From positions 40,060,370 to 40,124,369 of the forward strand of contig NC_135168.1 of NCBI RefSeq assembly GCF_041146795.1: a stretch of 64,000 nucleotides of DNA, written 5' to 3'. The translations under genes and the position numbers were made by a program. Position 1 is the first letter of the stretch. Every line of letters begins with the position of its first letter. Of the stretch, positions 771 through 46,612 are shown one piece after another. The notes under the pieces are model-generated. The model had not been told where the DNA came from. It saw only the letters and a program-made list of their open reading frames with translations, and searched no databases. This DNA is from Maylandia zebra. Lineage: Eukaryota > Chordata > Actinopteri > Cichliformes > Cichlidae.

Positions 771-1414
771 GAGGCAGGTGTCGCGTTGTGGGGAAAACTT
801 GCTTGCTGTGCTTCACCGTTTCTGCATTAATGAGAAAATAATCATCATCCAGTCGCTTCCCTGACACCTGGACTTTAGCTTGTGAGGTTTCAGGCACAAT
901 TTAAATGCAAGTGGACTGACTTAATGACCAAGAAAGCTGATTCTCTGCAGACACATTTCCAGCTCTCTTGTCTTTCTCAGCCAGCACTGAACTCTTAACA
1001 TGCAGGCTTATTCTTTACCTTCATAGTGAACTTCTCTTTTTAGAGTGTTAGCAACAATACTGATAGACAACTGCTTTCATTTTCACATTACAGTATGTGT
1101 ATTTTTTCTTCATCAGTGGTACAAAGTTGAGATGGTAACATAAATAACCACCACATTTCATATTGTGATGTCTTGCCGGAGTCAGTAATGACAGAAAACT
1201 TAAAGTGCATTTTTGATACTTTTTGTTAGGTAATGTTTTTGCTACAATCTTGAATCAAATTGTTAGTTTGTATGGATGTTTCCATTAAATGTTACTTGAA
1301 TGGTTTAAACAAGTTTATGTGTTATTTCATAATTTATACATTGCAATCATATCAGATGGTCATTAAATGCTAATTAAACAAATGAGATAAATTAACCCTA
1401 AAAGGTGCCCGGTC
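771..1414. other. AT-rich intergenic stretch downstream of TLR copy A
   Basis: No gene, RNA or repeat is recognised. A reverse open frame at 679-897 has no recognisable domain. The similarity shared with the 3' flank of the second TLR begins at about 1415. Confidence 0.4.
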
Positions 1415-1479
1415 TTTAAAGGTGCAGGGTAGCTATGACATATTTCCAGTGTATCCAAATACTTCTGTAGCCCTTTTTT

Positions 1480-3936
1480 TTACCCCTTTAATCTGTGTCC
1501 CTCTTCAAGTCTTTCCTCTGCCCAATGCTCCTGTACTTGTGTGACTGGAGCATTGGGCAGGTCAGTCTGTAGGGCAGCTCTGAGGTTAGCCCAGAATAAC
1601 CTTTGTTTTGCCCTGTCTTGAGGCCACTCCAGATATGTGTGGCGGTTCATCATGGACTTCAGCTGGTAGTACTTGGATGGGATTAGGTATTGAGGCAGAG
1701 GCTCAAGCAGTACCAGCACAATGCTGTCTGAGCCCAGAGTGAGACGTTGGTGGGTGGCGAAGTAGAGCTCGTAATGACACCACTCGCTCTTGACAAAGTG
1801 AGCAGAGAGGACAAACACAGAGCGCCTGCATTTCTCCACACAGCTGATGATGTTCTCAATGATCGTCTTTCCCGGCACAAAATGTTTCTCGTGATGACAG
1901 ATTCTAAGCCCTCCTGCGGGGCCTTCGAGGTTGGGAAGAAGGGAATTGCGCACCCAGTCAACATCGTGCTGGCTATAAGACACAAACGCGTGGAACTCCA
2001 GACCCACCAGATCCTCGGGCCGAGCTTGTTGCAGTCTTGCACGATGTTTGGCTCTTGTCCACTGCCAGATCATGCCCATGTACCAGGGAACATCCAAACA
2101 GTGACACAGAATCACAATGGAAATAATCAGTGTCCCTGCTGGAACCAAAATTGCAACCACTAGAAGGCCAATGCTGCAGGAGACCTCTGGGATCGAGATG
2201 TCTCTTAAAGTTGAGTTTCTAACGTCCTCGGGGTATGTGCAGTAATAGTCCTGTGGCCAATTCAGCAGCTCAATACCTGATTGGTTGTTGTTGTTCTTTT
2301 CAGAATTGGTAGCGAGCTTTATGAAACCTCTGAGAGTGCAGGTACAGGTGAAGGGGTTAAAACTGACATCTAGGATATGCAGTTCGGGACAGCTTTCCAA
2401 TATGTTCACAGATGGGGCATGGAGAGAATTTGACCTGAGCAGAAGCTTGTGGAGTGTGGGGAAAGTGCCACAACCTGGCAGGTCCCGCAGCCGGTTAGCA
2501 TTTAGATTCAGAGTTGAAAGGTTTCTCAGTTTAAAGATGGATTGCGGAACCACCGAAATCTGGTTGTTCTGGAGGTCCAGTATCTGTGTCCCATTTGGTA
2601 GACATTGAAAAACTGACTCAGTCAAACTATTAGAAGACAGATTTATATTGGTGATGCTTGCTGGCCAGATGCACTGTGATGACTGGTCATACCCTATGGA
2701 GTTGACGCTGAGGTCCAGATGTTGCAGGGACGACATATATCGAAAACGTTGGCTCAGTAACTCAAGTTTTTTAAGACTGTTGCCTACCAGAGTCAAGTTC
2801 TTCAGGTTACGCAGGTTCTGACATTCAACTACGTTTTTACCCACCGCACTTGAGAAGATGGAATCAGACATAGCACCAAAGGAAAAATCCAGCTGGCGTA
2901 TTGGACTCTGTGACTTGGGACAGGTCATGTGTATCATTGGTGCGTCAGTAATCGCAACACTCTCCACTGGCATGCTGATGAAAAAGTTGTATAAAGCCTC
3001 CTGTGAGAATTGGAAACTTGTTACCACTGCCTGGCTGGCTGTGAAAGAAATCACCTGTGATGTTTTGATCACTTCAGTTGTGTAGTGAGGAGGATTCTTT
3101 ACATTCATTTCAGAAACACGAACATGTTTCAAAGTTGTATTTAGAGCCACATTTACATATTCAGTTAAGTCTTGCCATTTAATTGTTATGTTGGTGAGAT
3201 AAAAACTCGTTGTGTGGATTTTCACCGTCTCTCTTAGCTGCTTACTTAGGTCTTTGTAGCCATTTATCATATTCATCATCTCCACTTCAGCAAACAGAGA
3301 CAGAGCATCAGCAGTCAGATTACGGTCAATTTTTGGATTATGTCCAAAGGCTATCTGCAGCCTTTGAGCATGAACATCCTCCAGGCTGCCTGCTTCATAA
3401 TAAAGTCCATCCTCTAGTAATAACGTCAATGTACGTAGTTTCATTTTAGCAATGTTCTTGAAGTCACCCACGCTGATGTTTTTTGCTCCAACTGTTAATC
3501 TTTCCAGTTTTACAAGAGAGCTGAACTCACTCCCCAATGTCATGGTAAGAAATCTGTTAAAGGCCAAGTTTAGCACCAGGAGGTTCACTGTGTGTAGCAG
3601 GTATTGTTGACCTGAGAGATTCTTGAGATTGTTGTGCGACAGGTCCAGATGTTCCAGGAGAGGCGTGTCAAGAAAAGTCTGTGGATCGATCTCCTCCAAA
3701 TTATTCCATGACACATTCAGGAACCTGAGGTGAGTGGTTTTTTGAAAGTCTCCATTGTGAAGCTGACGTATGTAGTTGCGAGAGAGGTCTAAAAACTCAG
3801 TCGTCTGTGGCAGGTCAGTTGGGACAGAGGAGAGGTTTTGGGATGATCGGTCTACAAAGTTGTCAGGTGATGAAGTGCTCTTCTGAAGTCCCACCAACAC
3901 GGCTGCTGTCCAGAGTACGGCTGCTGTGACCCTCAT
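1480..3936 (-). CDS. tlr1: Toll-like receptor, TLR1/6/10 group (copy A)
   Basis: Single coding exon of 818 aa on the minus strand. It starts with a hydrophobic signal peptide (about 1-22), followed by leucine-rich repeats from about residue 45 to 525, a cysteine-rich LRR C-terminal cap (NPFTCTC...YYCTYPE...VSC), a membrane helix (about 589-614) and a cytoplasmic TIR domain (about 646-790). The TIR shows box 1 FHAFVSYS, box 2 with the FVPG proline loop, SEWCHYELYFA and box 3 FW. These are close to mammalian TLR1/6/10, which pair with TLR2 to sense lipoproteins and signal through MyD88. The family usually has a single coding exon of about 780-820 aa. The ATG sits five bases after a splice acceptor (AG at 3942-3943), so a 5' UTR exon lies upstream. 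A paralogue is at 13253-15706. The fish-specific name (tlr1 against tlr25-like) cannot be settled by eye; the TLR1-group assignment is firm. Confidence 0.93.
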   Translation of the reverse strand: MRVTAAVLWTAAVLVGLQKSTSSPDNFVDRSSQNLSSVPTDLPQTTEFLDLSRNYIRQLHNGDFQKTTHLRFLNVSWNNLEEIDPQTFLDTPLLEHLDLSHNNLKNLSGQQYLLHTVNLLVLNLAFNRFLTMTLGSEFSSLVKLERLTVGAKNISVGDFKNIAKMKLRTLTLLLEDGLYYEAGSLEDVHAQRLQIAFGHNPKIDRNLTADALSLFAEVEMMNMINGYKDLSKQLRETVKIHTTSFYLTNITIKWQDLTEYVNVALNTTLKHVRVSEMNVKNPPHYTTEVIKTSQVISFTASQAVVTSFQFSQEALYNFFISMPVESVAITDAPMIHMTCPKSQSPIRQLDFSFGAMSDSIFSSAVGKNVVECQNLRNLKNLTLVGNSLKKLELLSQRFRYMSSLQHLDLSVNSIGYDQSSQCIWPASITNINLSSNSLTESVFQCLPNGTQILDLQNNQISVVPQSIFKLRNLSTLNLNANRLRDLPGCGTFPTLHKLLLRSNSLHAPSVNILESCPELHILDVSFNPFTCTCTLRGFIKLATNSEKNNNNQSGIELLNWPQDYYCTYPEDVRNSTLRDISIPEVSCSIGLLVVAILVPAGTLIISIVILCHCLDVPWYMGMIWQWTRAKHRARLQQARPEDLVGLEFHAFVSYSQHDVDWVRNSLLPNLEGPAGGLRICHHEKHFVPGKTIIENIISCVEKCRRSVFVLSAHFVKSEWCHYELYFATHQRLTLGSDSIVLVLLEPLPQYLIPSKYYQLKSMMNRHTYLEWPQDRAKQRLFWANLRAALQTDLPNAPVTQVQEHWAEERLEEGHRLKG

Positions 3937-3941
3937 TGTAG

Positions 3942-5380
3942 CTTGTATAAGAAAATATAGCCATTAAACGGGTAGCATTTGTCTGTGTGTCATTCTGTCT
4001 GTAAATATATAATAGCTTAAAATGATTTGAATAAATTCTGATAAATGTTTGTAATGTTAAAAAGTGGAGTCATGTTAACAATACATTATAATTTGGTTAC
4101 ATATACCAGGGTTATCAAGGTCAACTTAATAATAATTAACAATATTGATCAAAAATTAAAAAAAAAAGGAGATTCTAAATATCACGTTACCTTGGATGTC
4201 TGACACTGAAGAAGAAGTCAGAAGATATGTTTAAAATTCTACTGCTTTTGTTCGTATTGCCAACATTTAGGGGAAGATACTGATGTTGTGGGATTTTAAC
4301 GATCACATTATAGTTTGCATCCAAATTTCATTGCAAATTTGACCTCTGATCTCACATTTACATTTCACATCTGCCTTTCTTTTCAAGAGTTTTGGAGTCA
4401 ATACAGCATTGGCTCCAAAATGCATATAATAATAATGCTCGGAGTCAAGTTCGTGACATATATAATGTAGTATAATGTCATATAATATGATTAAGTGATT
4501 TGTGTCCAGTCAATTGCAAATAACTAACTTTAAATTTTAATAAACAACAAAAATAAATGCCACACATGTACTGCACCTACATGAATACAAATAAGAAAAA
4601 ATAATTATACTCAAAAAAATGTCAGGTATATTAAAATGGGTTTCAAACTAAACAAATATATACAAAACACAATATTATATCCTTAAAAGTAAGAAACTAC
4701 CCAGAGAGTGAGCTGCCTTAGTGGAGGTTTGCACTCTTGGAGTAGTTTTTGTTTAAAATAAATGCTGTCTACCTTTTTGTTGGCTACAATTCTCAGAAAC
4801 TGCTGGGGAGAAGTAAGGATTTGACTTAACGATCACTTTATAGGAAGCAGTGTGTAACAGTATCCTTTCTAAACTTGTTTAAATAAGACAGGATTGATAA
4901 AAGCACAAATCAGGTTTTTATCATCTGAGTGATAACAAAAATCTGGTATTTGGAAATCATCATCATGTGTCTGTCATGAATAAATAAATGTGTAAAATTA
5001 AATAAATGGTTCTAGTAGCTCATCGGTCAGATGTCATGCAAATATAAAACAAAGTTTTTGTTAATTGATAGATGTCCCTTTTTCAGAATTGTCTGTAGTA
5101 GATAATGAAAAAATAAGAACTTTTCTCCCATTTATTTGTTGATCTATCAGTTAATGACTCTGGTGTAGTATGAAGTACCATGGTGGAGGTCTTTATACAG
5201 CTGACATTTCACAGAGCCACCCAGTGTGATGGATTGGTGTCTTTACTGGGTCGATTCTGCCCAGAATTTGATTTTATTTATTTCAATCTAAATCTTAAAA
5301 TAAAGAAAACCCAAAACCACATTCACATTAATTCAAAGGAAAACACAATTTTATTCAAAGATGGTTAAGAGTCCACTAAC
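3942..5380 (-). other. 5' UTR intron of TLR copy A
   Basis: On the minus strand a GTTAGT donor (complement of 5375-5380) and an AG acceptor (3942-3943) bracket 1439 bases. Parts are recognisably shared with the intron of copy B: 4785-4960 with 15835-16010, and 5270-5380 with 24290-24399. No coding sequence or inserted element is seen, so this is probably close to the ancestral intron length. Confidence 0.65.
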
Positions 5381-6583: not shown

Positions 6584-6774
6584 TGTTATGTATTTAGTAA
6601 AATCAGTTTATAGTTTGTGGTACTACTTTCTGTTACAAAGTAGAGAACACAAAGTGTGGTGTATGTGCGCATTGATATGCCTGCGCCTTTCCTTAGACTG
6701 GTTATTAAAGTAAATTACTACAACTAAAGAAGGCGTCGTTACTTACCAGTTAAGTTATAAGAGAGAATATAACA
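6584..6774 (+). repeat. Left LTR of the gypsy-type element
   Basis: 191 bp, TG...CA ends, same sequence as 9349-9539 by eye. It is preceded by target duplication GAGAG. Sequence resembling a primer-binding site (TGGCGACGAGGAT) follows at about 6778. Confidence 0.93.
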
Positions 6775-9348
6775 GACTGGCGACGAGGATTAAAACGGAT
6801 CCCTGATGTGCATTGGACGACAGAGAGGGGGAAATCCTTGTGAAAGTGGCCAAAAAGACACGAAAAAGGTTAGGGCCAAAACAACTAACCCTCCGTGTGG
6901 ATGCTAGCTCACCTGCCTGGCTAAAGAGAGGACGTGAGTAACATCAATTCTTTTAAGTGAAGGACGCTTATAAAAATACCGAGAAAATGTCAGGAGGCGT
7001 TGGACAAATGGACGTTTTTGATAATGGCACAGAGGATTGGACAACATATGTAGAGAGAGTTGAACAGTATTGTCGGGCTAACAAAGTAGAGGATGAGAGG
7101 AAAGTTGCTGTGTTACTGAGTGTGATGGGAGCGAAAACATACAACTTGTTGCGCAGCCTCATCACACCGACCAAACCAGCTGACAAAAGTTTCAAGGAGA
7201 TCACAGAAGTGCTCCAAAAACATTTCCAACCGAAGCCACTGGTTATAGCCGAACGTTTCCGATTTCATAAACGAAATCAATTAAAGAATGGATTTGGCAT
7301 GCCTGGAACTGTACACAATGCAAGAGAAAGATAATGATGCAATATGGCTCACACCTAAAATACAAGGGATTGAGTTACAGATGGAACTGGACACTGGGTG
7401 TGCTCTCTCACTGATTTCATATGAAGATTACAGAAACAAATTCCTAATCTGAAACTGAAGCACACCTCAGTGAAACTGAAAACGTACACAGGTGAAAGAA
7501 TAACTCCTCTGGGAAAACTAAAAGTGAAAGTGGAATATGAGAAAAAGAAATGCAACCTGGAACTTTATGTTCTGAAAAATGGAGGTGTGCCATTATTTGG
7601 GCGTGACTGGTTGAAACACATCCACCTCAACTGGAAAGAAATAAAGTCAATGAGACTAGAACGAGGCCTGAGTGCAAATTCTGTAGATGAAAGACTGAAA
7701 CAGATCCTTAATAACCATGCCCAGGTGTTCAAAGATGGAATCGGCACCCTGAAAAATATTAAAGCACAGATCATACTAGAGGACAATGCAAAACCAAGAT
7801 TCCACAAGGCACGCCCTGTACCTTATGCTTTACGCCCTAAAGTTGAAGCAGAGCTCCAACGCTTGGAAGAGCAAGGAATACTTACCAAGGTGGAATGGTC
7901 AGATTGGGCTACACCAATAGTATCAGTAAGCAAGAAAGCAAGTGACAGTGTGCGGATCTGTGGTGATTTTAAGGTTTCAGTGAACCCAGTTCTCCGCATA
8001 GATCAGTACCCACTTCCACGGATAGAAGACATATTCACAGCAGTAGCAGGTGGCAAACACTTTTCAAAAATTGACCTTGCCCAGGCTTATCTCCAGATGG
8101 AAGTAGAAGAGACATCCAGGAAATATCTGGTAATAAACACTCACAAAGGCCTATATCAGTACAACAGACTGGTATTTGGTATCGCCAGTGCACCAGCAGT
8201 ATGGCAACGTGCCATGGATCAGGTCCTACAAGGCATTCCAGGAACACAGTGTTTTCTGGATGACATAATCGTCACTGGTGTTGATGAGGAGACTCATCTG
8301 GCTAACCTAACAGCAGTCCTGGCCAGGCTAGAAAAATATGGACTGAGAGCAAACAAAAACAAATGTAAGTTCTTTAAGGATGCCATTGAGTATTGTGGAC
8401 ACAAGATCGACAGACATGGGCTCCACAAAACCAAGGACAAAGTTGAAGCAGTCCTGAAGGCACCAGAACCTAAAAATGTGAGTCAGCTACGCTCTTTCTT
8501 GGGCTTAGTTAATTATTACCACAAGTTTCTACCAAACCTTTCAACAGTCCTTCAAGCGGTCAATGAAAGCCAGTCGCACAGAGGGGAAGCCGCTACAACA
8601 GAAAATAGACAATTTCTTACTGGCTTACAGGAACGCCACTCATGCAACAACTGGACACACACCTGCAATGCTCTTCATGGGACGGAATCTGAGATCACGT
8701 CTAGATTTGCTGAAACCAGACATTCGCAAGGATGTCCAAGATAAACAGTCTTCCATGGTGGAAGCAACAAGAAACAAAACTAGATTCTTCAATGTTGGAC
8801 AAAAAGTTCTCGCCAGGGACTACAGAGACCCAAGTCAGAAATGGCAGCCTGGCACGATTCTGTCACGGACCAGACCACTGACATACACTGTAAATGTTGG
8901 AGCCAACTTAGTCTGGCGTAGACATGTTGATCAGATTGTAGATGCGGAAAGTCACATGGTTCCACAGCAACCTGAGAGCACATCTACACCTCAAGATTCA
9001 GAAGAGTTTGCCCTCGCTTCACCACCTGAGGTTCAGGATTTACGTAAAACTACCAATGCTCAAACACCTGAACTTCCCACACAGAGCACTATGGAGTCTG
9101 ACCAAACAGGCAGACGGTACCCTGAGAGAAATCGCAGAGCACCTCAGAGACTGAACTTATAGGTTTCAAGTTAATTTTGTAGGAAAGCAGTTCAAATGTT
9201 TAAGAGGAAACAACCTACCTCCATGTTGTAAATCACTGAGTAGGTGTCATATTTCAGTTCAAGTTAAATTATTGGTTTACAGCATTTATCTGAAAATATT
9301 TTGATTGTTTGGTACCTATTGTGTTCATCAAAGTTGGATGGGAGGAAC

Positions 9349-9539
9349 TGTTATGTATTTAGTAAAATCAGTTTATAGTTTGTGGTACTACTTTCTGTTA
9401 CAAAGTAGAGAACACAAAGTGTGGTGTATGTGCGCATTGATATGCCTGCGCCTTTCCTTAGACTGGTTATTAAAGTAAATTACTACAACTAAAGAAGGCG
9501 TCGTTACTTACCAGTTAAGTTATAAGAGAGAATATAACA
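9349..9539 (+). repeat. Right LTR of the gypsy-type element
   Basis: 191 bp, preceded by a purine tract and followed by the second copy of the GAGAG target duplication (9540-9544). Confidence 0.93.
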
Positions 9540-10794
9540 GAGAGTATCATTCTACACCACCTTTGCCCACTAGTCGGGAGAGATCTAGACTCGCTGCAGT
9601 TTACCTACCAGCTGAACATCGGGGCGGATGACGCTGTCACGTACCTGCTGCATCGGGCCTTCTCTCATCTGGAGAGCACCAGGTGCACACTGAGTCATGT
9701 TTTTTGATTTCTCCAGTGCCTTCAATACAATCCAACCCTCAGTGCTAAGGGAGAAGATGCAGGGAGCTGGAGTGGACCATCAGCTGTCCTCATGGATTAT
9801 TGACTACCTCACCAGTAGACCCCAGTATGTGAGGCTGCGGGACTGTGTTTCTGAGGTGGTAGTCTGTAGCACGGGGGCCCCACAAGGAACAGTACTCGCC
9901 CCTTTTCGCTTCACCCTGTACACTGCGGACTACAGTTATAACACGGACACTTGCCATCTCCAGAAGTTGTCAGATGACACCGCCATTGTGGGTCAGGTGT
10001 CGGAGGGAAATACAGTGGGGTCGTCAATGACTTCGTCAACTGGTGTGAACAGAACAGATCTTTGCATCAATGCCAGCAAGACAAAGGAGCTGGTGATTGA
10101 CTTCAGCAAGAAGCCACCCCCTATTACACCAGTGAACATCCAGGAATTGGACATTGAAACGGTGGAGGAGTACAAATACCTGGGTGTTCACCTCAACTAC
10201 AAACTGGACTGGTCCACAAACACAAATGCACTTTACAAAAAGGGTTTAAGTCGTCTCCACCTGCTACAGCGGGTGAGATCCTTCAGGGTGAACAGGACAC
10301 TCATGAGGACATTTTCCGACACTGTGGTGGTGTCTGCTATTTTCTATGCTGTGGTCTGCATGAGTGGTGGAATGGCAGAGAGGGACAGGGGGAAACTCAA
10401 CAAACTAGTCAGGAGGGCCAGCTCTGTCCTGGACTGTCCACTGAAGTCCATCGAGCAGGTTGGGGAGGAGAGGATGTTGTCTAAGCTAATATCCATCATG
10501 GACAACACCTCCCACCCCCTGCATGAAACTGTATGAGCACTGAGCAGCTCATTCAGCAGTCGAGTTTTACACCCACAGTGTAGGAAGGAGCGCTACCGCA
10601 AGTCATTCTTACCAGCAGCTGTCAGACTCTATAATGCAGCTTAACATTCTTTTGGTCATCTTACTCACCAGCTTGTTTGTTTACCACCTTGTGTCTTCCT
10701 TTTATATTTTATTGTCCTTTGCTGTAAGAGTTCTGTAACACCGAAATTTCTCATCCGTGGGATAATAAAGGTTTATTCTATTCTATTCACACCC

Positions 10795-13170: not shown

Positions 13171-13252
13171 GGTATTAGGTGACCATGTCTTTAAAGATTC
13201 AGGGTAGCTACGATGTATTTCCAGTGTATCCAAATGCTTTTGATGCCTCTTT

Positions 13253-15706
13253 TTACCCTATTAACCCCTGTCTCTCTTCAAGTCTTTCCTCTGCCCAATG
13301 CTCCTGTACTTGTGTGACTGGAGCATTGGGCAGGTCAGTCTGTAGGGCAGCTCTGAGGTTAGCCCAGAATAACCTTTGTTTTGCCCTGTCTTGAGGCCAC
13401 TCCAGATATGTGTGGCGGTTCATCATGGACTTCAGCTGGTAGTACTTGGATGGGATTAGGTATTGAGGCAGAGGCTCAAGCAGTACCAGCACAATGCTGT
13501 CTGAGCCCAGAGTGAGACGTTGGTGGGTGGCGAAGTAGAGCTCGTAATGACACCACTCGCTCTTGACAAAGTGAGCAGAGAGGACAAACACAGAGCGCCT
13601 GCATTTCTCCACACAGCTGATGATGTTCTCAATGATCGTCTTTCCCGGCACAAAATGTTTCTCGTGATGACAGATTCTAAGCCCTCCTGCGGGGCCTTCG
13701 AGGTTGGGAAGAAGGGAATTGCGCACCCAGTCAACATCGTGCTGGCTATAAGACACAAACGCGTGGAACTCCAGACCCACCAGATCCTCGGGCCGAGCTT
13801 GTTGCAGTCTTGCACGATGTTTGGCTCTTGTCCACTGCCAGATCATGCCCGTGTACCAGGGAACATCCAAACAGTGACACAGAATCACAATGGAAATAAT
13901 CAGTGTCCCTGCTGGAACCAAAATTGCAACCACTAGAAGGCCAATGCTGCAGGAGACCTCTGGGATCGAGATGTCTCTTAAAGTTGAGTTTCTAACGTCC
14001 TCGGGGTATGTGCAGTAATAGCCCTGTGGCCAATTCAGCAGCTTAATTCCTGATTGGCTGTTGCTCTTTTCAGAATTGATAGCGAGCTTTATGAAACCTC
14101 TGAGAGTGCAGGTACAGGTGAAGGGGTTAAAACTGACATCTAGGATATGCAGTTCGGGACAGCTTTCCAATATGTTCACAGATGGGGCATGGAGAGAATT
14201 TGACCTGAGCAGAAGCTTGTGGAGTGTGGGGAAAGTGCCACAACCTGGCAGGTCCCGCAGCCGGTTAGCATTTAGATTCAGAGTTGAAAGGTTTCTCAGT
14301 TTAAAGATGGATTGCGGAACCACCGAAATCTGGTTGTTCTGGAGGTCCAGTATCTGTGTCCCATTTGGTAGACATTGAAAAACTGACTCAGTCAAACTAT
14401 TAGAAGACAGATTTATATTGGTGATGCTTGCTGGCCAGATGCACTGTGATGACTGGTCATACCCTATGGAGTTGACGCTGAGGTCCAGATGTTGCAGGGA
14501 CGACATATATTGAAAACGTTGGCTCAGTATCTCAAGTTTTTTAAGACTGTTGCCTATCAGAGTCAAGTTCTTCAGGTTACGCAGGTTCTGACATTCTACA
14601 AATTTATCATCCACCACACTTGAGAAGATGGAATCAGACATAGCACAATTAGAAAAATCCAGCTGGCGTATTGGACTCTGTGACTTGGGACAGGTCATGT
14701 GTATTATTGGCGTGTCAGTAATCGCAACACTCTCCACTGGCATGCTGATGAAAAAGTTGTATAAAGCCTCCTGTGAGAAGAAGAAACTTGTTACCACTGC
14801 CTGGCTGGCTGTGAAAGAAATCACCTGTGATGTTTTGATCACTTCTGTTTCAACTCGAGGAGGCTGCATTATGTGCACATCAGAGGCATCAAGATGTTTC
14901 AAAGTTGTATTTAGAGCCACATTTACATATTCAGTTAAGTCGTGCCATTTAATTGTTATGTTGGTGAGATAAAAACTCGTTGTGTGGATTTTCACCGTCT
15001 CTCTTAGCTGCTTACTTAGGTCTTTGTAGCCATTTATCATATTCATCATCTCCACTTCAGCAAACAGAGACAGAGCATCAGCAGTCAGATTACGGTCAAT
15101 TTTTTGATTATGTCCAAAGGCTATCTGCAGCCTTTGAGCATGAACATCCTCCAGGCTGCCTGCTTCATAATAAAGTCCATCCTCTAGTAATAACGTCAAT
15201 GTATGTAGTTTCATTTTAGCAATGTTCTTGAAGTCACCCACGCTGATGTTTTTTGCTCCAACTGTTAATCTTTCCAGTTTTACAAGAGAGCTGAACTCAC
15301 TCCCCAATGTCATGGTAAGAAATCTGTTAAAGGCCAAGTTTAGCACCAGGAGGTTCACTGTGTGTAGCAGGTATTGTTGACTTGAGAGGTTCTTGAGATT
15401 GTTGTGCGACAGGTCCAGATGTTCCAGGAGAGGCGTGTTAAGAAAAGTCTGTGGATCGATCTCCTCCAAATTATTCCATGACACATTCAGGAACCTGAGG
15501 TGAGTGGTTTTTTGAAAGTCTCCATTGTGAAGCTGACGTATGTAGTTGCGAGAGAGGTCTAAAAACTCAGTCGTCTGTGGCAGGTCAGTTGGGACAGAGG
15601 AGAGGTTTTGGGATGATCGGTCTACAAAGTTGTCAGGTGATGAAGTGCTCTTCTGAAGTCCCACCAACACGGCTGCTGTCCAGAGTACGGCTGCTGTGAC
15701 CCTCAT
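13253..15706 (-). CDS. tlr1: Toll-like receptor, TLR1/6/10 group (copy B)
   Basis: Single coding exon of 817 aa, with the same order as copy A: signal peptide, leucine-rich repeats, LRR C-terminal cap, membrane helix and TIR domain. The TIR is residue-for-residue the same as copy A, as is almost the whole N-terminal third. Differences cluster in the central repeats: 12 of 15 residues between about 272 and 286 differ (14849-14893), with further changes at about 309, 332-334 and 353-369. A small block near residue 535-555 (with a one-residue gap) and the last few residues also differ. The ATG follows a splice acceptor at 15713-15714. Likely role: membrane sensor of microbial lipopeptide-type ligands, pairing with TLR2 and signalling through MyD88 (family knowledge). 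It is intact, with no frameshift or stop. It could be named tlr1 or a fish-specific TLR1-group member. Confidence 0.93.
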   Translation of the reverse strand: MRVTAAVLWTAAVLVGLQKSTSSPDNFVDRSSQNLSSVPTDLPQTTEFLDLSRNYIRQLHNGDFQKTTHLRFLNVSWNNLEEIDPQTFLNTPLLEHLDLSHNNLKNLSSQQYLLHTVNLLVLNLAFNRFLTMTLGSEFSSLVKLERLTVGAKNISVGDFKNIAKMKLHTLTLLLEDGLYYEAGSLEDVHAQRLQIAFGHNQKIDRNLTADALSLFAEVEMMNMINGYKDLSKQLRETVKIHTTSFYLTNITIKWHDLTEYVNVALNTTLKHLDASDVHIMQPPRVETEVIKTSQVISFTASQAVVTSFFFSQEALYNFFISMPVESVAITDTPIIHMTCPKSQSPIRQLDFSNCAMSDSIFSSVVDDKFVECQNLRNLKNLTLIGNSLKKLEILSQRFQYMSSLQHLDLSVNSIGYDQSSQCIWPASITNINLSSNSLTESVFQCLPNGTQILDLQNNQISVVPQSIFKLRNLSTLNLNANRLRDLPGCGTFPTLHKLLLRSNSLHAPSVNILESCPELHILDVSFNPFTCTCTLRGFIKLAINSEKSNSQSGIKLLNWPQGYYCTYPEDVRNSTLRDISIPEVSCSIGLLVVAILVPAGTLIISIVILCHCLDVPWYTGMIWQWTRAKHRARLQQARPEDLVGLEFHAFVSYSQHDVDWVRNSLLPNLEGPAGGLRICHHEKHFVPGKTIIENIISCVEKCRRSVFVLSAHFVKSEWCHYELYFATHQRLTLGSDSIVLVLLEPLPQYLIPSKYYQLKSMMNRHTYLEWPQDRAKQRLFWANLRAALQTDLPNAPVTQVQEHWAEERLEERQGLIG

Positions 15707-16329
15707 TGTTGCCTAAATAAAAGATATAGGTATTAGCTTTCATAATATTATTTATTTTTACCATCAGTTGTCAGAGTGTTGGATACATCAAAAAGAAATG
15801 TTCAAAAGTCCTACAATAAATTCTTTGTGGTGGTTATAATGCTTAGTAATTGCTGTAGAGAGGTGTGGATTTGATGTAATCATTTTAAAGGATTCAGTGT
15901 GCAATGCCTTAATTAAACAGTTTAAGTTTTTAATTAGGGTAGACAAATTGATAAATGTACAAATTAGGTTTTTATCAACTGAATAATGCAAAAATTGGAA
16001 ACTGAAACTTCAGTAGAGTGTTAGAAATAATTGTTACGTCTCAAATTAAAACATTTTAATTTGAAGTCAGACTTGCACTGTTAGAAAAATCTGTAATTTC
16101 AGAATTTTCATATAAATTTTACAGCATTTTCCTGTCATTTTAAACACATGAAATATCAGTAAAATTACAAGAAATATTCTCTGCATTAACATATCTGATT
16201 TAATAAAAAATAAATAGAGAAGTGTACTTATGAATAAACATGTTTTTTTACATGCATTTACAGAAAATGTATTCATTTTTACACATAAAAAGAGTGTAAA
16301 AATACAGTTGCAAGCTTAACATGATTTAT

Positions 16330-25510: not shown

Positions 25511-26255
25511 TAGAAGCTTCTGGCTGTAAGAAAACAGAAAACAGCCTGTTTTTTCAGCGTCACAGTGTAAGATTATCTCTTATTTAATAAATGTGTCAAA
25601 ATGTGCCGTTGTTGATTTGTTAGAAAGCTGAAATCCCCTAATGCAAGTGATTACAAAATACAGTGTGTGTGTTTGTAATGTGCAGTAAGTCTTTCTTATG
25701 AAGCTAAGATCAGAGTACAAGCTAATTATTGACACAAATGTTCTTTACAGCAATCAGCATGTGCCTGAGAGCTCTGAGTCAGTCTCTATGCACCCTTTGA
25801 AAGATAGCTCACTATTATCTTTATTAGCTGTGTTGAATTATGACTCTTTATTTATTTATTTTTATTAATTTGGCTGAGATCCAAGAATAATCAAGCGCTT
25901 TTTGAAGGACGGGTTAAATTAATGAGCCGGAATGGCCTCGGTAGTAAAACAAGTATGTGAGGACATGAGTCAACCTTTGTATGTGTGAACGTTATGTGGT
26001 AGGGAGGGGTTGAGTGGGAGCAGAAGTACACTGGGAGTGAGAGATAGGGACGCAGGGTGTCAGATGGAGAGCGCAAAACCTCGAAGCTTCAAATGTTCCA
26101 CTCTGCTCGCTTTGATCACTTCAGCCTCTTCTTCACCCACATTATGGATCTCTTATCAGTCATAAAGGAATGCATTATTTTCAAACGTGCGCTGACGGAC
26201 TGACATCAGCTGTCTCATTAAGGTGGATTTTGGAATCAAGGTAGAAACCTTCAGT
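25511..26255. other. Intergenic spacer and 5' region of klb
   Basis: The stretch between the divergent TLR copy B and klb holds no recognised gene. The klb promoter and 5' UTR should lie here, but no clear TATA box or start is evident. The in-frame codon at 26223 is GTG, not ATG. Confidence 0.4.
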
Positions 26256-29200
26256 ATGCTGAACCAGCCCAAATGTCACTTCCTCTTGTCTTCTCTCCTG
26301 TTTTCCTTATATTCTTGGAACAAGGCAACCTGCTCTCTTGGGAAGGGCAGGGATATTTGGCAGCAGCCCAAACCGGATCCCACACTCAAAGGGCAATCTT
26401 TTCTACATGACACCTTCCCTCTAGGCTTCCTCTGGGGCTCTGGAACTTCTGCTTTCCAGACAGAAGGAGCCTGGAACCAGAATGGGAAAGGTGCCTCAAT
26501 TTGGGACAGTTTCACCCACTCCTCTGTCAGTGGCAGCTTGGACAGAGAGGCTGCCAATGTGGCAAGTGACAGCTACAACAGATGGGAAGAAGATGTGAAA
26601 GCATTGGAGTATCTAGGTGTAAGGTCATACTCTTTTTCTCTCTCCTGGCCCAGACTCTTTCCTGATGGAAATGCCAGAGGTCAGCCCAATACTGCTACTG
26701 TGAAGCATTACAGCTACCTCATAGAGAGGCTTCTGGAAAAGAAAATTGAGCCCATCGTCACTCTCCATCACTGGGACCTGCCACAGGTGCTGCAAGAGGA
26801 TTATGGAGGCTGGAAGAACGAAACTGTGGTGGAACTTTTCGAGGAGTATGCTACTTTTTGTTTCCACACTTTTGGGAGTCGTGTTAGGTATTGGCTCACA
26901 ATGCATAATCCCTACCTGGTGGCTGTACAGGGATACGGGACAGGAGTCCATGCTCCTGGAGAAAAAGGGGGACCTGCCACCTCTCTTACTGTGGCACACA
27001 ATCTGATAAAGGTCAGTTACACATGGGGACCTAGCAGATTTTGTCAAATTTCTCACAAGTATGTAATTTTTACTCTTCGTGTTCCTCATCTGTTTTGGTT
27101 GCAACGCCAGCGATATGAAGAATATCTCCAGTTACACACATACACAAACTGTGTAAACTTTGAACTCTCACAGCTTTATCATTTTACGATAGACAGTGAA
27201 TCTGTATATTGCTCGAGTGATTTTAGGTCAGAGGACAGTGAAGCAAGAAAGCCCTGATATTTCATTTTAATACAATCAAATTGGTCAGGGCGTATAAAAC
27301 TAGTGCAAACAAGTGCAAAACCTGGCTGCTTGCTTTGTTTTGTTTTTTTGTTTTATCTCCTTGATGACTCGTCAATTTTATTTATATTGATTGGCTTGTG
27401 ATAAACACGACAGTTAAAGAGACACTGCGGTCAAAGTCCACCACATCAGCACTTGTCTACTGGAGAAAAATGGTGTGTGTCAGGAAGTCGGGGAGACATG
27501 CCTCATTAATAATCACTTTCAGTTTACGCAAAGAAGCACAGATGGTGTACCTGCAGCGCCCAGTGAGCAAACAAAACCAAAAAAAATTCAAATAAAATAA
27601 CCATTTATATGTAATTGTTTTCATAATTACTCTCTTATCTCTCATTTTCCCTCTCCTTATCCAGAATTAACTATGTTATGTATACCTGTGCTTTTCATAG
27701 AGACACAGTAAATTTTGCTGAGTCAAATAAGTTTATTTTACAGTGAATATGTTCAGGAAAAAAAACAACAAAACTAAAAACATCACACTAATGTGTCTGC
27801 TGTTATTTCCAGGCTCACGCTAAAGCATGGCATGCCTACAACGCCAACTTCCGCACAACTCAGAAGGGTAAAGTGTCCATTGTTTTGGGCTCCCACTGGG
27901 TGGAACCTCAAAGAGGCAAAGCCATTGATGCAAGTGCTGAGCTCTGTCAGGAGTCAATAGAGGCAGCACTGGGCTGGTTTGCCAGTCCCATCTTTGGTGA
28001 TGGGGACTACCCAGTCTCTTTAAAAACCAAGCTTGGGGCTCTTCTGCCAGCATTCACCCCTGAAGAGAAGCTCTGGGTGCAGAAGACAGCTGACTTTTTC
28101 GCCCTATCCTTTGGGCCTAACAACCTCCGTTTGGGGCAGAGTGTAATCAGCTACGGGCAGACGGTGACTCCAGACCTAAGACGACTCCTGGGCTGGATAA
28201 AGTTGGAATATGGGAATCCAAGTGTCTTAGTAGCTGAGGGAGGCTGGTTCTCTGAAGCCACTGTAGGAAAGGAAGACACAGTGGGCATCTATCTGATGAA
28301 AAGCTTTATCAACCAAGTCTTGCGAGGTAAGCAGAACGCTGGGAAGAACAAATAAATATGAGTTAGACAATAAAGTCATTGAGACACAAACATTTGTCTA
28401 TCTTACTCTATTATTACTTTGTTTTCTTTCATAGCCATTAACCTTGACGGTGTACGGGTGTTTGGATACATGGCCTGGTCTTTAGTGGATGGATTTGAGT
28501 GGAATTATGGGTATAGTATTAGACGAGGCCTTTTTTATGTGGACTTCAGCCAACCAAACAGAACTAGGAGCCCCAAGAGCACCGCTCAGTACTACAGAGA
28601 AATAGTTAATGATAATGGCTTCCCAAGTGATGAAACCTCGCAAGAGGTGAAAGGCTATTTCCCCTGCAACTTTCACTGGGGTATTGCAGACTCCACTTTA
28701 CAGGTAACATGACTTTATGATTATCAGCTATGGAAGATGTTCAATAATGCTCCGGACGCCTAAAGAACACATTTTAATTGTATTGTTTTGTTTTGTTTTT
28801 GTAGGTCAACTTCTACCCTTTCTCCCCACAGTTTACTGACCCTCATTTGTACAGTTGGAACTTGACAGGTGACGGATCGTTGCATCAGGTCCCAGGGGTG
28901 AAGCTCCAGACCAGGCGAGCACAGTGCACAGACTATTTGGCTATCCGTGATCATCTTAACCTGCTGGAATCGACAAGGGCATCTCACTATCGCTTCGCTC
29001 TAAACTGGTCTCTGATTTTACCCCAAGGAGACCTCTCTAATGTAAACACAGAAGCTCTGAGGTAAAGATGCGCACACACACACAGTGACAATTCAAATAA
29101 CACAATTCATGTTATACCTGTAACTTTACCTGAGTCACACCCCGGTTATTGACAGAGCAATTTCGAGTTCATACGCACTTACTTTGCCTGAATCAGTCTC

Positions 29201-44500: not shown

Positions 44501-46612
44501 AGGCCACTTAAAATGGTTAAATAACACAAGACCCAGCTCTTGCTGTGACTCTGGCCTCTGTGTTAGATCAGAGAGTAACTGAGATTGACCTTTTTGACAT
44601 GTAGATCAGGTACACATTGCTCATTGTATTTGTCATCATACATCTGTGTATACGTACACATAACGTTTTTCTCAGTAAATGTGTCCCTCCCCTCTATTTC
44701 CAGGTAGACATCATTATGGGCATGGACAGCGGTGACCTGTCAGACTTTGTGGAAAATGTTGAGTGGGAGTGCCGTGGAATGCCGGCCACCAAGAATGTCA
44801 TAATGTATGGTTGTTGCTCTGACCCGTATCCAGACATCACCTATACAGTACTCCTGCAGCGTCGCTCTTCCTTTTACATCTTCAACCTCCTCCTCCCCTG
44901 CTTCCTCATCTCCTTCTTGGCCCCTCTGGGCTTCTATCTGCCTGCAGACTCTGGGGAAAAGGTTTCCCTGGGGGTGACAGTTCTTCTAGCTTTAACGGTG
45001 TTCCAGCTCATGGTGGCTGAGAGCATGCCGCCCTCAGAAAGTGTGCCTCTCATAGGTAAGAAGGTTTTGGTTTTTTTTAGAAATATATTTAATAACTTGT
45101 TTTTGTTGCATGGTTTATGTTTCTGTCACTCTATTATTAAAAAAAATATACCAGAAATCGTACAGGCATGCATAATTAACAACACTAAATTGTAAGTGTT
45201 GTTGCCATTGCACATTGCACTTTTTTCGATGGAATATCTAGGTTGTTTTATCAGGCTTATATTATATTATAGTATTTTTTTAATGAGTGTACGTGATGTG
45301 TTGGTTGTATGTTTGTTGTTTGTTTTGACATACTGCGAATCAATTTCCCATCAGGGACAATAAAGTTACCATTGACCATTGACCATGGTCCAAAAATGAC
45401 CTATGATCTAGTGATGCATTGGTATGTTTTTAGTTTTCAAATTAAAGGTACCCTTAGGAATTTTACTGTTAAAACTTGGGCCATATTTATCTATGTAGCA
45501 ATGTAGCATAGCACAAGGTTACACCTTTAAGGGTCACAGGGGCAGACACTGAATGAGAGGCAGGTGTACATGCTGGAGAAGATGACATTCCATATGTTAC
45601 AGGACGAACATGTCCAAATATTTATAGCACACCCTATAATCTGACCTGGAGTTGGAAATTTTTAAATGTGAACAAAAAGTATTTGCTCGTCTGCTTTCAT
45701 ATGCATATGAACTTGAGTGACATCCCAATGCTAATCCATAGGGTTTAATAATGATGTCGGGCCACCTTCTAGTACCTACAGTGTGTTAATGGTCATGGAC
45801 TTGTCTTCCATCTGTTTTTTGTTCCTTCCTGTTACACAGGGAAGTACTATATCGCCACTATGACAATGGTCACAGCCTCCACATCTCTCACCATCTTCAT
45901 CATGAACATTCACTTCTGTGGTGTGGAGGCCAAACCAGTTCCACACTGGGCAAAAGTCCTCATCATTGACTACATGTCAAAGATTTGTTTTGTTTATGAA
46001 GTGGGTGAGAACTGTGCCTCTGCCTCGTCTTCGTCTTCTCGCTCCACCCAGGATGAAGTCCGTCACCAGCAGTTCAACACTCACATTCATTCAAATGGTA
46101 AACCTGGTAGGCAAAGTAGCCGAGAGGACCGGCATAGCGACAAGTATCCCAGATCCCAGAGCTCCAAGCTGCAGCAATATCCAAGAGTTCAGCACCACAT
46201 CACCAGAGATGAGAGCGCCCACATATCTACTTTTGAACCCGGAAAGTATGAAAGCTCTAATGGTAAAATTCAGATAAACGACTACTATAAAGAAGACCAT
46301 AAGGTGCTGTATTGTTCTGAGGACCAGAAGATTCCCTGCTGCCCTGAGGATAAAAAGCCTCTACCTCAGGGTCCCACTGTAACCTTTGGCCCCTGTGTCT
46401 TCTGCACCCATGGCAGTGGCTTCGCTGGTATGGACACTAAGCTAGTGCGCAATGTTGAGTACATAGCAAACTGTTTTAGAGAGCAGAGAGCCACGTGCGC
46501 CAAGGGGGCAGAATGGAAAAAGATAGCTAAGGTCATGGACAGATTCTTCATGTGGATTTTCTTTATCATGGTTTTCCTCATGAGCATCCTCATCATCGGT
46601 AAGGCACCATGA
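41521..46612 (+). CDS. chrna9: Nicotinic acetylcholine receptor subunit alpha-9
   Basis: Six coding exons: 41521-41560, 41861-42006, 43766-43920, 44175-44355, 44704-45055, 45840-46612. Phases join to 548 aa. The signal peptide is followed by a ligand-binding domain with WRPDLVLYN, the Cys loop [15 protein letters not shown] and the vicinal cysteines [10 protein letters not shown] that mark an alpha subunit. M1 is [21 protein letters not shown]2 [21 protein letters not shown]3 in [20 protein letters not shown], and M4 [15 protein letters not shown]. Alpha-9 (with alpha-10) forms the Ca2+-permeable efferent receptor of hair cells. Synteny with ube2k and nsun7 and the sequence ([15 protein letters not shown]) favour alpha-9 over alpha-10. 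The M3-M4 loop is clearly longer than in the 479-aa human protein and contains Ser-rich and Cys-rich patches ([27 protein letters not shown]). The exon 4 donor is GTCTGG, weak but phase-correct. Confidence 0.94.
42550..42590. repeat. Perfect 19-bp hairpin with 3-nt loop in chrna9 intron 2
   Basis: ACTCACTCCACAGTGAATT, AGC, then its exact complement. All 19 pairs match. It is the cleanest foldback in the window and has no transposon-like ends around it. Confidence 0.9.
45190..45387 (+). mobile_element. LINE 3' end in chrna9 intron 5
   Basis: It ends TGCGAATCAATTTCCCATCA, GGGACAATAAAGTTACC and a short (ATTGACC)n tail (45371-45387). This is the standard 3' terminus of fish CR1/L2/Rex1-like LINEs. 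Only the 3' UTR is present; the 5' limit is approximate. Confidence 0.6.

Follow-up and report, generated by a model that had tools for sequence, protein, structure and literature searches.

How two tandem receptor genes come to be almost identical and yet differ in a few short stretches, and whether these stretches lie where the receptor chooses its ligand, are the questions raised by a locus of the cichlid Maylandia zebra. The window analyzed here is a stretch of 64,000 nucleotides (NC_135168.1, positions 40,060,370 to 40,124,369 of the forward strand), to whose first letter all positions given without a contig refer. An earlier note, made from the letters alone, had described in it a pair of Toll-like receptor (TLR) genes with one diversified island, placed this island in the lipopeptide pocket, and proposed that the two receptors see different ligands.

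Results

Two tandem genes resembling tlr1

The two genes, termed A and B, are intact ORFs on the minus strand with a spacing of 11.8 kb (Table 1). In both, the Pfam models LRR_8 and TIR score over their cut-offs, which gives each copy an LRR ectodomain and a TIR domain; a signal peptide and a transmembrane segment were assigned by eye in copy A. The best PDB matches of copy A are the TIR domain and the ectodomain of human TLR1, and among the solved chains nearest to A and B TLR1 comes first, followed by TLR6 and TLR10. The NCBIfam matches remained under their cut-offs. In bony fish, tlr1 is clustered with beta-klotho, according to the part of the source used here (PMC10086376), and a beta-klotho-like ORF in the window fits this klb neighborhood. 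Judged by their domains, their nearest chains, and this neighbor, A and B look like tlr1 genes of the TLR1 subfamily.

Table 1. Features of the gene pair, its flanks, and its neighborhood in the window, and of the receptor trio on contig C6.
Feature	Position	Strand	Basis or remark
Copy A (putative tlr1)	1480..3936	-	single coding ORF, 818 aa; Pfam LRR_8 and TIR
Copy B (putative tlr1)	13253..15706	-	single coding ORF, 817 aa; Pfam; human TLR1 alignment
Island 1, A, codons 272-287	3076..3123	-	21/48 nucleotides differ from B
Island 1, B	14846..14893	-	codon alignment
Codon 309, A (Q)	3010..3012	-	no base in common with B; opposite human TLR1 G313
Codon 309, B (F)	14780..14782	-	codon alignment, human TLR1 mapping
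Codons 332-334, A (332 A/T, 334 M/I)	2935..2943	-	334 aligned to human TLR1 M338
Codons 332-334, B	14705..14713	-	codon alignment, human TLR1 mapping
Island 2, A, codons 352-370 (differences at 352-354 and 364-370)	2827..2883	-	alignment; two-state segmentation
Island 2, B	14597..14653	-	alignment; two-state segmentation
Last six codons, A, unshared C-terminal end	1483..1500	-	6/18 nucleotides differ; segmentation
Last six codons, B	13256..13273	-	segmentation
3′ flank of A, diverged	1403..1479	-	63/74 aligned bases identical to B
3′ flank of B	13177..13252	-	alignment to A flank
Residual upstream homology, A side	4773..5002	.	matches B at 170/211 aligned bases; 36 gap positions
Residual upstream homology, B side	15823..16050	.	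alignment to A side; shuffles
Beta-klotho-like ORF	26223..27257	+	top chain beta-glucosidase, then beta-klotho and klotho chains
C6 trio genes (L033-L035), third = L010 (L035)	C6:16638028..16640391, 16646675..16649038, 16652900..16654903		

The genome assembly (962 Mb in 63 contigs) was searched with the protein, and the following holds for the best 55 of 266 candidates, with family names given by our reading of the matches. No third tlr1 copy was found. Beyond A and B, the closest full-length relatives are 33% identical, namely, one TLR on contig C17 (L005) and, from a tandem trio on contig C6, the members L006 and L007. Shorter matches comprise a TLR2-like gene on C11 and a pair of TLR fragments on C3, and TIR pieces reach at most 47% identity.

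Between A and B, a direct repeat of 193 bases, 100% identical (6584-6776 and 9349-9541), surrounds an ORF that by eye is reverse-transcriptase-like (7470-8744); repeat pair and ORF together look like a recent LTR element insertion. Another ORF in this interval (9697-10536) resembles, again by eye, a fragment of a non-LTR retroelement reverse transcriptase. Farther along the window, the end of ORF 45860-46612 resembles a nicotinic acetylcholine receptor subunit.

Differences between A and B are clustered

Over 817 aligned codons, A and B differ by 61 substitutions in 2451 aligned bases and by an indel of one codon at 548 (exon identity 97.5%). Forty residues are substituted and five codons differ silently; at conserved residues, the codon is identical in 772 of 777 cases. 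That 12 of the 15 residues between 272 and 286 differ, as the earlier note had stated, is true by codon alignment (A 3079-3123, B 14849-14893, minus strand): A and B agree only at 275, 282, and 283, 20 of the 45 nucleotides differ, and all 12 differing codons alter the residue, none being purely silent, whereas codon 287 adds one further silent change. Neither 20 differences in 45 bases (maximum 12) nor 12 residues in 15 (maximum 8) was ever reached in 20,000 random placements. The clustering is, thus, far above chance expectation, and codon alignment did not even out the spread of the differences. The near-identity that had been claimed to include silent sites is real for the rest of the gene and breaks down in 272-287, where third positions differ at 7 of 16 codons versus 14 of 801 elsewhere.

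Identity is as unevenly distributed as difference. The three longest identical runs measure 577, 431, and 267 bases, and, rank by rank, none of 20,000 placements equaled them; the fourth, of 177 bases, was equaled in six. Over the TIR stretch 646-790, all bases are identical. The stretch 272-286 is the largest of several clusters, the others being 309, 332/334, 352-354, 364-370, a looser one at 543-563, and the last six codons. Two-state segmentation recovered 272-287, 352-370 (as two parts in one setting), and 813-818 in three of three settings, codon 309 in two, and 543-556 in one. By region, codons 255-347 contain 16 residue differences and codons 348-400 another 10, which places 26 of 40 in codons 254-400 and 14 outside. 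Even when 272-287 is set aside, half of the remaining residue differences (14 of 28) fall into 255-399, compared with 16% expected (p = 3e-5). The looser group at codons 543-563 (2248-2310 in A), which contains the one-codon indel, lies outside the pocket region.

Near-identity is limited to the exon

Beside the exon, the flanks of A and B are 76-85% identical (22 of 29 bases directly 5′ of the start codon), and the alignment is lost beyond ∼80 bases on the 3′ side and ∼30 bases on the 5′ side, save for one diverged upstream piece. In this piece, 41 of 211 bases differ, and its alignment scores 89.7 bits compared with at most 35.4 in 200 shuffles. When used to search the genome DNA, the A-side and the B-side piece each returned nothing but the query itself, so neither looks like a common repeat; as the other copy was missed each time, the two may also be members of a diverged repeat family. 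Silent changes outside the pooled islands amount to 3.5 in 556 sites, versus 11 differences in 74 bases of the 3′ flank (Fisher p = 3e-8, for which 3.5 was rounded to 4). The flanks have, thus, diverged further than the shell that they enclose. Near-identity limited to an exon between diverged flanks is the pattern expected from gene conversion, and the identical runs beyond chance and the identical codons at conserved residues agree with it.

Silent and replacement divergence are alike in the islands

In the pooled islands (30 codons, with limits drawn from the same data), pS is 0.40, an estimate that derives mostly from path averaging across codons changed more than once (purely silent codons number three), and pN is 0.45. 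In the remainder of the gene, pS is 0.006. A dN/dS above 1 could not be established: it was 1.20 in the pooled tlr1 islands (bootstrap P(dN≤dS) = 0.33; 30 codons, hence low power), 0.85 in codons 284-370 of the C6 pair L006/L007 (P = 0.69), and 0.93 when pooled (P = 0.62). As silent divergence in the islands is estimated to reach the level of replacement divergence, positive selection is not demonstrated, and diversification by point substitution, the origin that the earlier note had implied, finds no support in a dN/dS near 1. Together with the contrast in third positions, a pS of 0.40 makes the islands resemble older blocks spared by conversion, not a recent burst of amino acid changes. Since identical stretches surround codon 309, sparing by conversion is a difficult explanation for it, and it may have changed later. 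As to which of the copies had changed, matches to the references human TLR1, L005, and L006 were too few to polarize the differences (B matched at 3 of 25, 2 of 29, and 7 of 32 positions, and A at 1, 1, and 2, respectively).

Position of the islands on the receptor

Alignment to human TLR1 runs at an offset of +4 over residues 272-354, so that 272-286 corresponds to human 276-290, with lower alignment confidence in the second half. The stretch falls within the LRR9-12 module and would, by our reading of the repeat register, be the strand and first turn of LRR10. In the part of PMC2077338 used here, this module is cited as discriminating tri- from diacyl lipopeptides. The claim that the divergence sits where ligand choice is made is, thus, borne out for the island itself and only partly for the differences as a whole: 16 of the 40 residue differences, including the largest island, align to human 259-351 (repeat borders being our reading), 10 lie just past 351, and 14 lie elsewhere. 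Island 2, by the same reading of the register, would be located past LRR12.

Individual positions were compared with those named in the portion of PMC2943521 at hand. Residue 309, where A has Q and B has F, aligns with G313, the backbone of which contacts the lipopeptide in a docked model, and 334 (M/I) aligns with M338, which, like L360, is a position taken by channel-blocking phenylalanines in TLR6. Human TLR1 286 lies inside island 1, and the fish residue opposite to it, 282, is the same in A and B. At the seven pocket positions from this source (D288, G313, P315, Q316, Y320, M338, and L360; D288 and Y320 are those of TLR10), A and B differ at three (p = 0.003 over the whole protein and p = 0.11 within 254-400); with two TLR10 dimer positions added, they differ at three of nine (p = 0.007 and 0.20, respectively). 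These enrichment p-values are weak, as the positions were picked after the map had been seen. The four hydrophobic positions of the island remain hydrophobic in both copies, which also occurs in 18% of random draws and is, therefore, not unusual. Structure prediction from the two-sequence alignment reached a mean pLDDT of only 29.1. From the position of the island, it is plausible that A and B recognize different ligands.

A second array with differences in the corresponding stretch

The C6 trio is unlinked to the tlr1 pair, to which its members are ∼33% identical (28% for the third; best 55 of 266 candidates). Its full-length pair, L006 and L007, differs at 47 of 787 residues, 42 of which fall into codons 280-400, as do 9 of the 10 silent differences. 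In human TLR1 numbering, most of the differing positions lie between 282 and 386, a span that takes in the second half of island 1 and reaches past LRR12, and seven columns (282-285, 290, 336, and 338) are common to the A/B and the L006/L007 differences. As in the tlr1 pair, near-identity is limited to the exon and its immediate surroundings. The bases adjoining the start codon are identical over 67 to 97 positions; farther upstream, the matches are 64-72% alike, save for two stretches free of differences (79 bases in L007/L010 and 22 bases in L006/L010), and on the 3′ side, similarity amounts to 60-72%.

The third member, L010, is a mosaic in which blocks like L006 and blocks like L007 alternate. 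Over codons 1-378, L006 and L007 differ at 67 nucleotide sites, of which three matching neither were dropped and 64 were scored; L010 alternates between them in only 11 runs compared with a mean of 33.0, and 0 of 20,000 shuffles were as low. It is mostly like L006 in codons 284-308, like L007 in 314-357, and again like L006 in 364-370. At about codon 378, L010 is short of one codon, and its frame runs out into an unrelated tail that has no TIR domain; a decoy receptor and a decaying copy are candidate readings of this gene.

Further tandem TLR sets are located at C16:18910081-18943294 and C9:28045460-28063854. Among 12 TLR pairs compared, L012/L013 (C16) and L017/L019 (C9) have clustered differences, whereas L012/L014 and the C3 pairs have broader spreads; the pattern is, thus, recurrent and not universal.

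Discussion

The most probable history of the pair, to which we give good though not full credence, is that of an old tandem tlr1 duplicate, the exon of which has recently been homogenized by gene conversion, while the pocket islands were kept apart, probably because they would serve different lipopeptides. Fish tlr1 would have duplicated in tandem long ago, yielding A and B, and gene conversion would recently have overwritten most of the coding exon. Conversion would, thus, keep in common a shell of N-terminal repeats, C-terminal repeats, transmembrane segment, and TIR domain, which both copies may have to share as they need the same TLR2-type partner and signaling adaptors. The short blocks in and just past LRR9-12 of the ectodomain would retain older differences, conversions in the pocket being selected against since the two pockets would serve different lipopeptides. 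Directly observed are the clustering, near-identity within the exon only, the divergence of the flanks, the lack of a third tlr1 among the best 55 of 266 candidates, and a similar pattern in a second array; that conversion is the cause, that selection has kept it out of the pocket, and that the ligands differ is what we infer. Some A/B differences must be newer because codon 309, as a single codon, is unlikely to be a block that conversion has spared. The receptor placement of the earlier note appears broadly right, and its evolutionary reading should probably be replaced by conversion with spared islands.

The islands might instead be spots that random conversion tracts happened to miss, devoid of functional meaning. 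Selection is not needed for a dN/dS of ∼1, and codons 254-400 do not account for 14 of the 40 differences, among them those at 543-563 and at the C-terminal end. This reading is nevertheless unlikely, as most differences of two unlinked arrays fall into matching parts of the receptor (26 of 40 in 254-400 for A/B and 42 of 47 in 280-400 for C6), and the same concentration is described for birds and mammals in the portions of PMC3125219 and PMC2077338 used here. Quite unlikely, too, is that one copy, once homogenized, acquired the islands through short conversion tracts donated by a divergent allele or by a since-lost paralogue. The islands are indeed discrete, highly divergent blocks, and block-wise mosaicism among copies does occur in the C6 trio; yet no donor is seen, a third tlr1 being absent from the best 55 of 266 candidates in the genome, and each of several separate islands would require an import of its own.

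Recent duplication followed by fast positive selection, with point substitutions building up in the pocket of A, of B, or of both, would account for the concentration of differences near the ligand module, for codon 309 differing at all three bases, and for 12 of 12 differing codons in 272-286 changing the residue. The divergence of the island third positions (7/16 in 272-287 versus 14/801; estimated pS 0.40 versus 0.006) speaks against it, and a recent origin would not lead one to expect flanks that are 76-85% identical and then lost save for one piece. We consider it improbable, and recent duplication with point substitution as the sole cause is set aside, given the diverged third positions of the islands and the old appearance of the flanks. 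That the assembly has set two alleles in tandem, as an exon identity of 97.5% (61 of 2451 bases differing) might suggest, is scarcely credible, since alleles would share flanks and those of A and B are unalignable beyond ∼80 bases 3′ and ∼30 bases 5′, save for the one diverged piece.

Old duplication with spared islands has counterparts in other vertebrates. In mammalian TLR1/TLR6, according to the part of Kruithof 2007 (PMC2077338) used here, conversion extends from about residue 436 into the TIR domain and stops before the stop codon, LRR9-12 is left different, which its authors tie to ligand choice as opposed to shared partners, and in the unconverted regions, the codons are identical at 56% and 65% of conserved residues. 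The fish pair shares with it the tandem arrangement of TLR1-type paralogues, the near-identity in the C-terminal repeats, in the transmembrane segment, and over most of the TIR domain, which ends before the stop codon, and differences that lie partly in LRR9-12. It departs from it, as far as that part of the source goes, in that the whole of 1-436 is different in the mammalian pair, whereas in fish, the N-terminal repeats and most of the center are near-identical, leaving islands of 3 to 57 bases.

The corresponding portion of Huang 2011 (PMC3125219) describes conversion of the C-terminal part in avian TLR1A/1B, and of N- and C-terminal parts in avian TLR2A/TLR2B with the central region spared. 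This spared center, at alignment positions of about 714-1290 (∼codons 238-430, by our division), lies near fish 254-400; in contrast to the fish tlr1 pair with its small islands, the birds have, in that portion, a TLR2 pair with one continuous spared block. The fish pair, thus, resembles the avian TLR2 layout transferred to a tlr1 gene and seemingly carried further until islands alone remain. The expansions of tlr22 (PMC3549756) and TLR25 (PMC4850435) in Atlantic cod are also duplicated, partly tandem fish TLRs with diversified ectodomain sites, for which the parts of these papers used here report positive or diversifying selection across the ectodomain. Unlike in the account given here for tlr1, the phrase "gene conversion" occurs 0 times in the main texts of both papers, as judged by a term search. 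No fish tlr1 pair with this pattern was reported in the titles and abstract openings of the open-access matches listed. The mammalian and avian pairs are, thus, direct precedents, of which the fish tlr1 pair with its small islands would be a variant.

One further, rather doubtful possibility is that tandem arrays of the TLR1 family are, in this fish, small cassette systems, in which conversion would keep a common frame while short pocket blocks are kept distinct and reshuffled among copies, giving rise to new ligand pockets. If this were true, the C6 trio, with its mosaic third copy devoid of a TIR domain, would be the clearest instance, and the tlr1 pair would be the two-member case.

If the favored history of old duplication and spared islands is right, the fish pair would be another parallel case of a TLR design with a shared frame and private pockets, after mammalian TLR1/6, avian TLR1A/B, and TLR2A/B, and the arrangement would here be present in two unlinked arrays of one genome. 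Since no more than 40 of 817 residues distinguish A from B, and 26 of these fall within codons 254-400, the pair comes close to a natural domain swap, and any difference between A and B in their response to ligands could be assigned to few residues.
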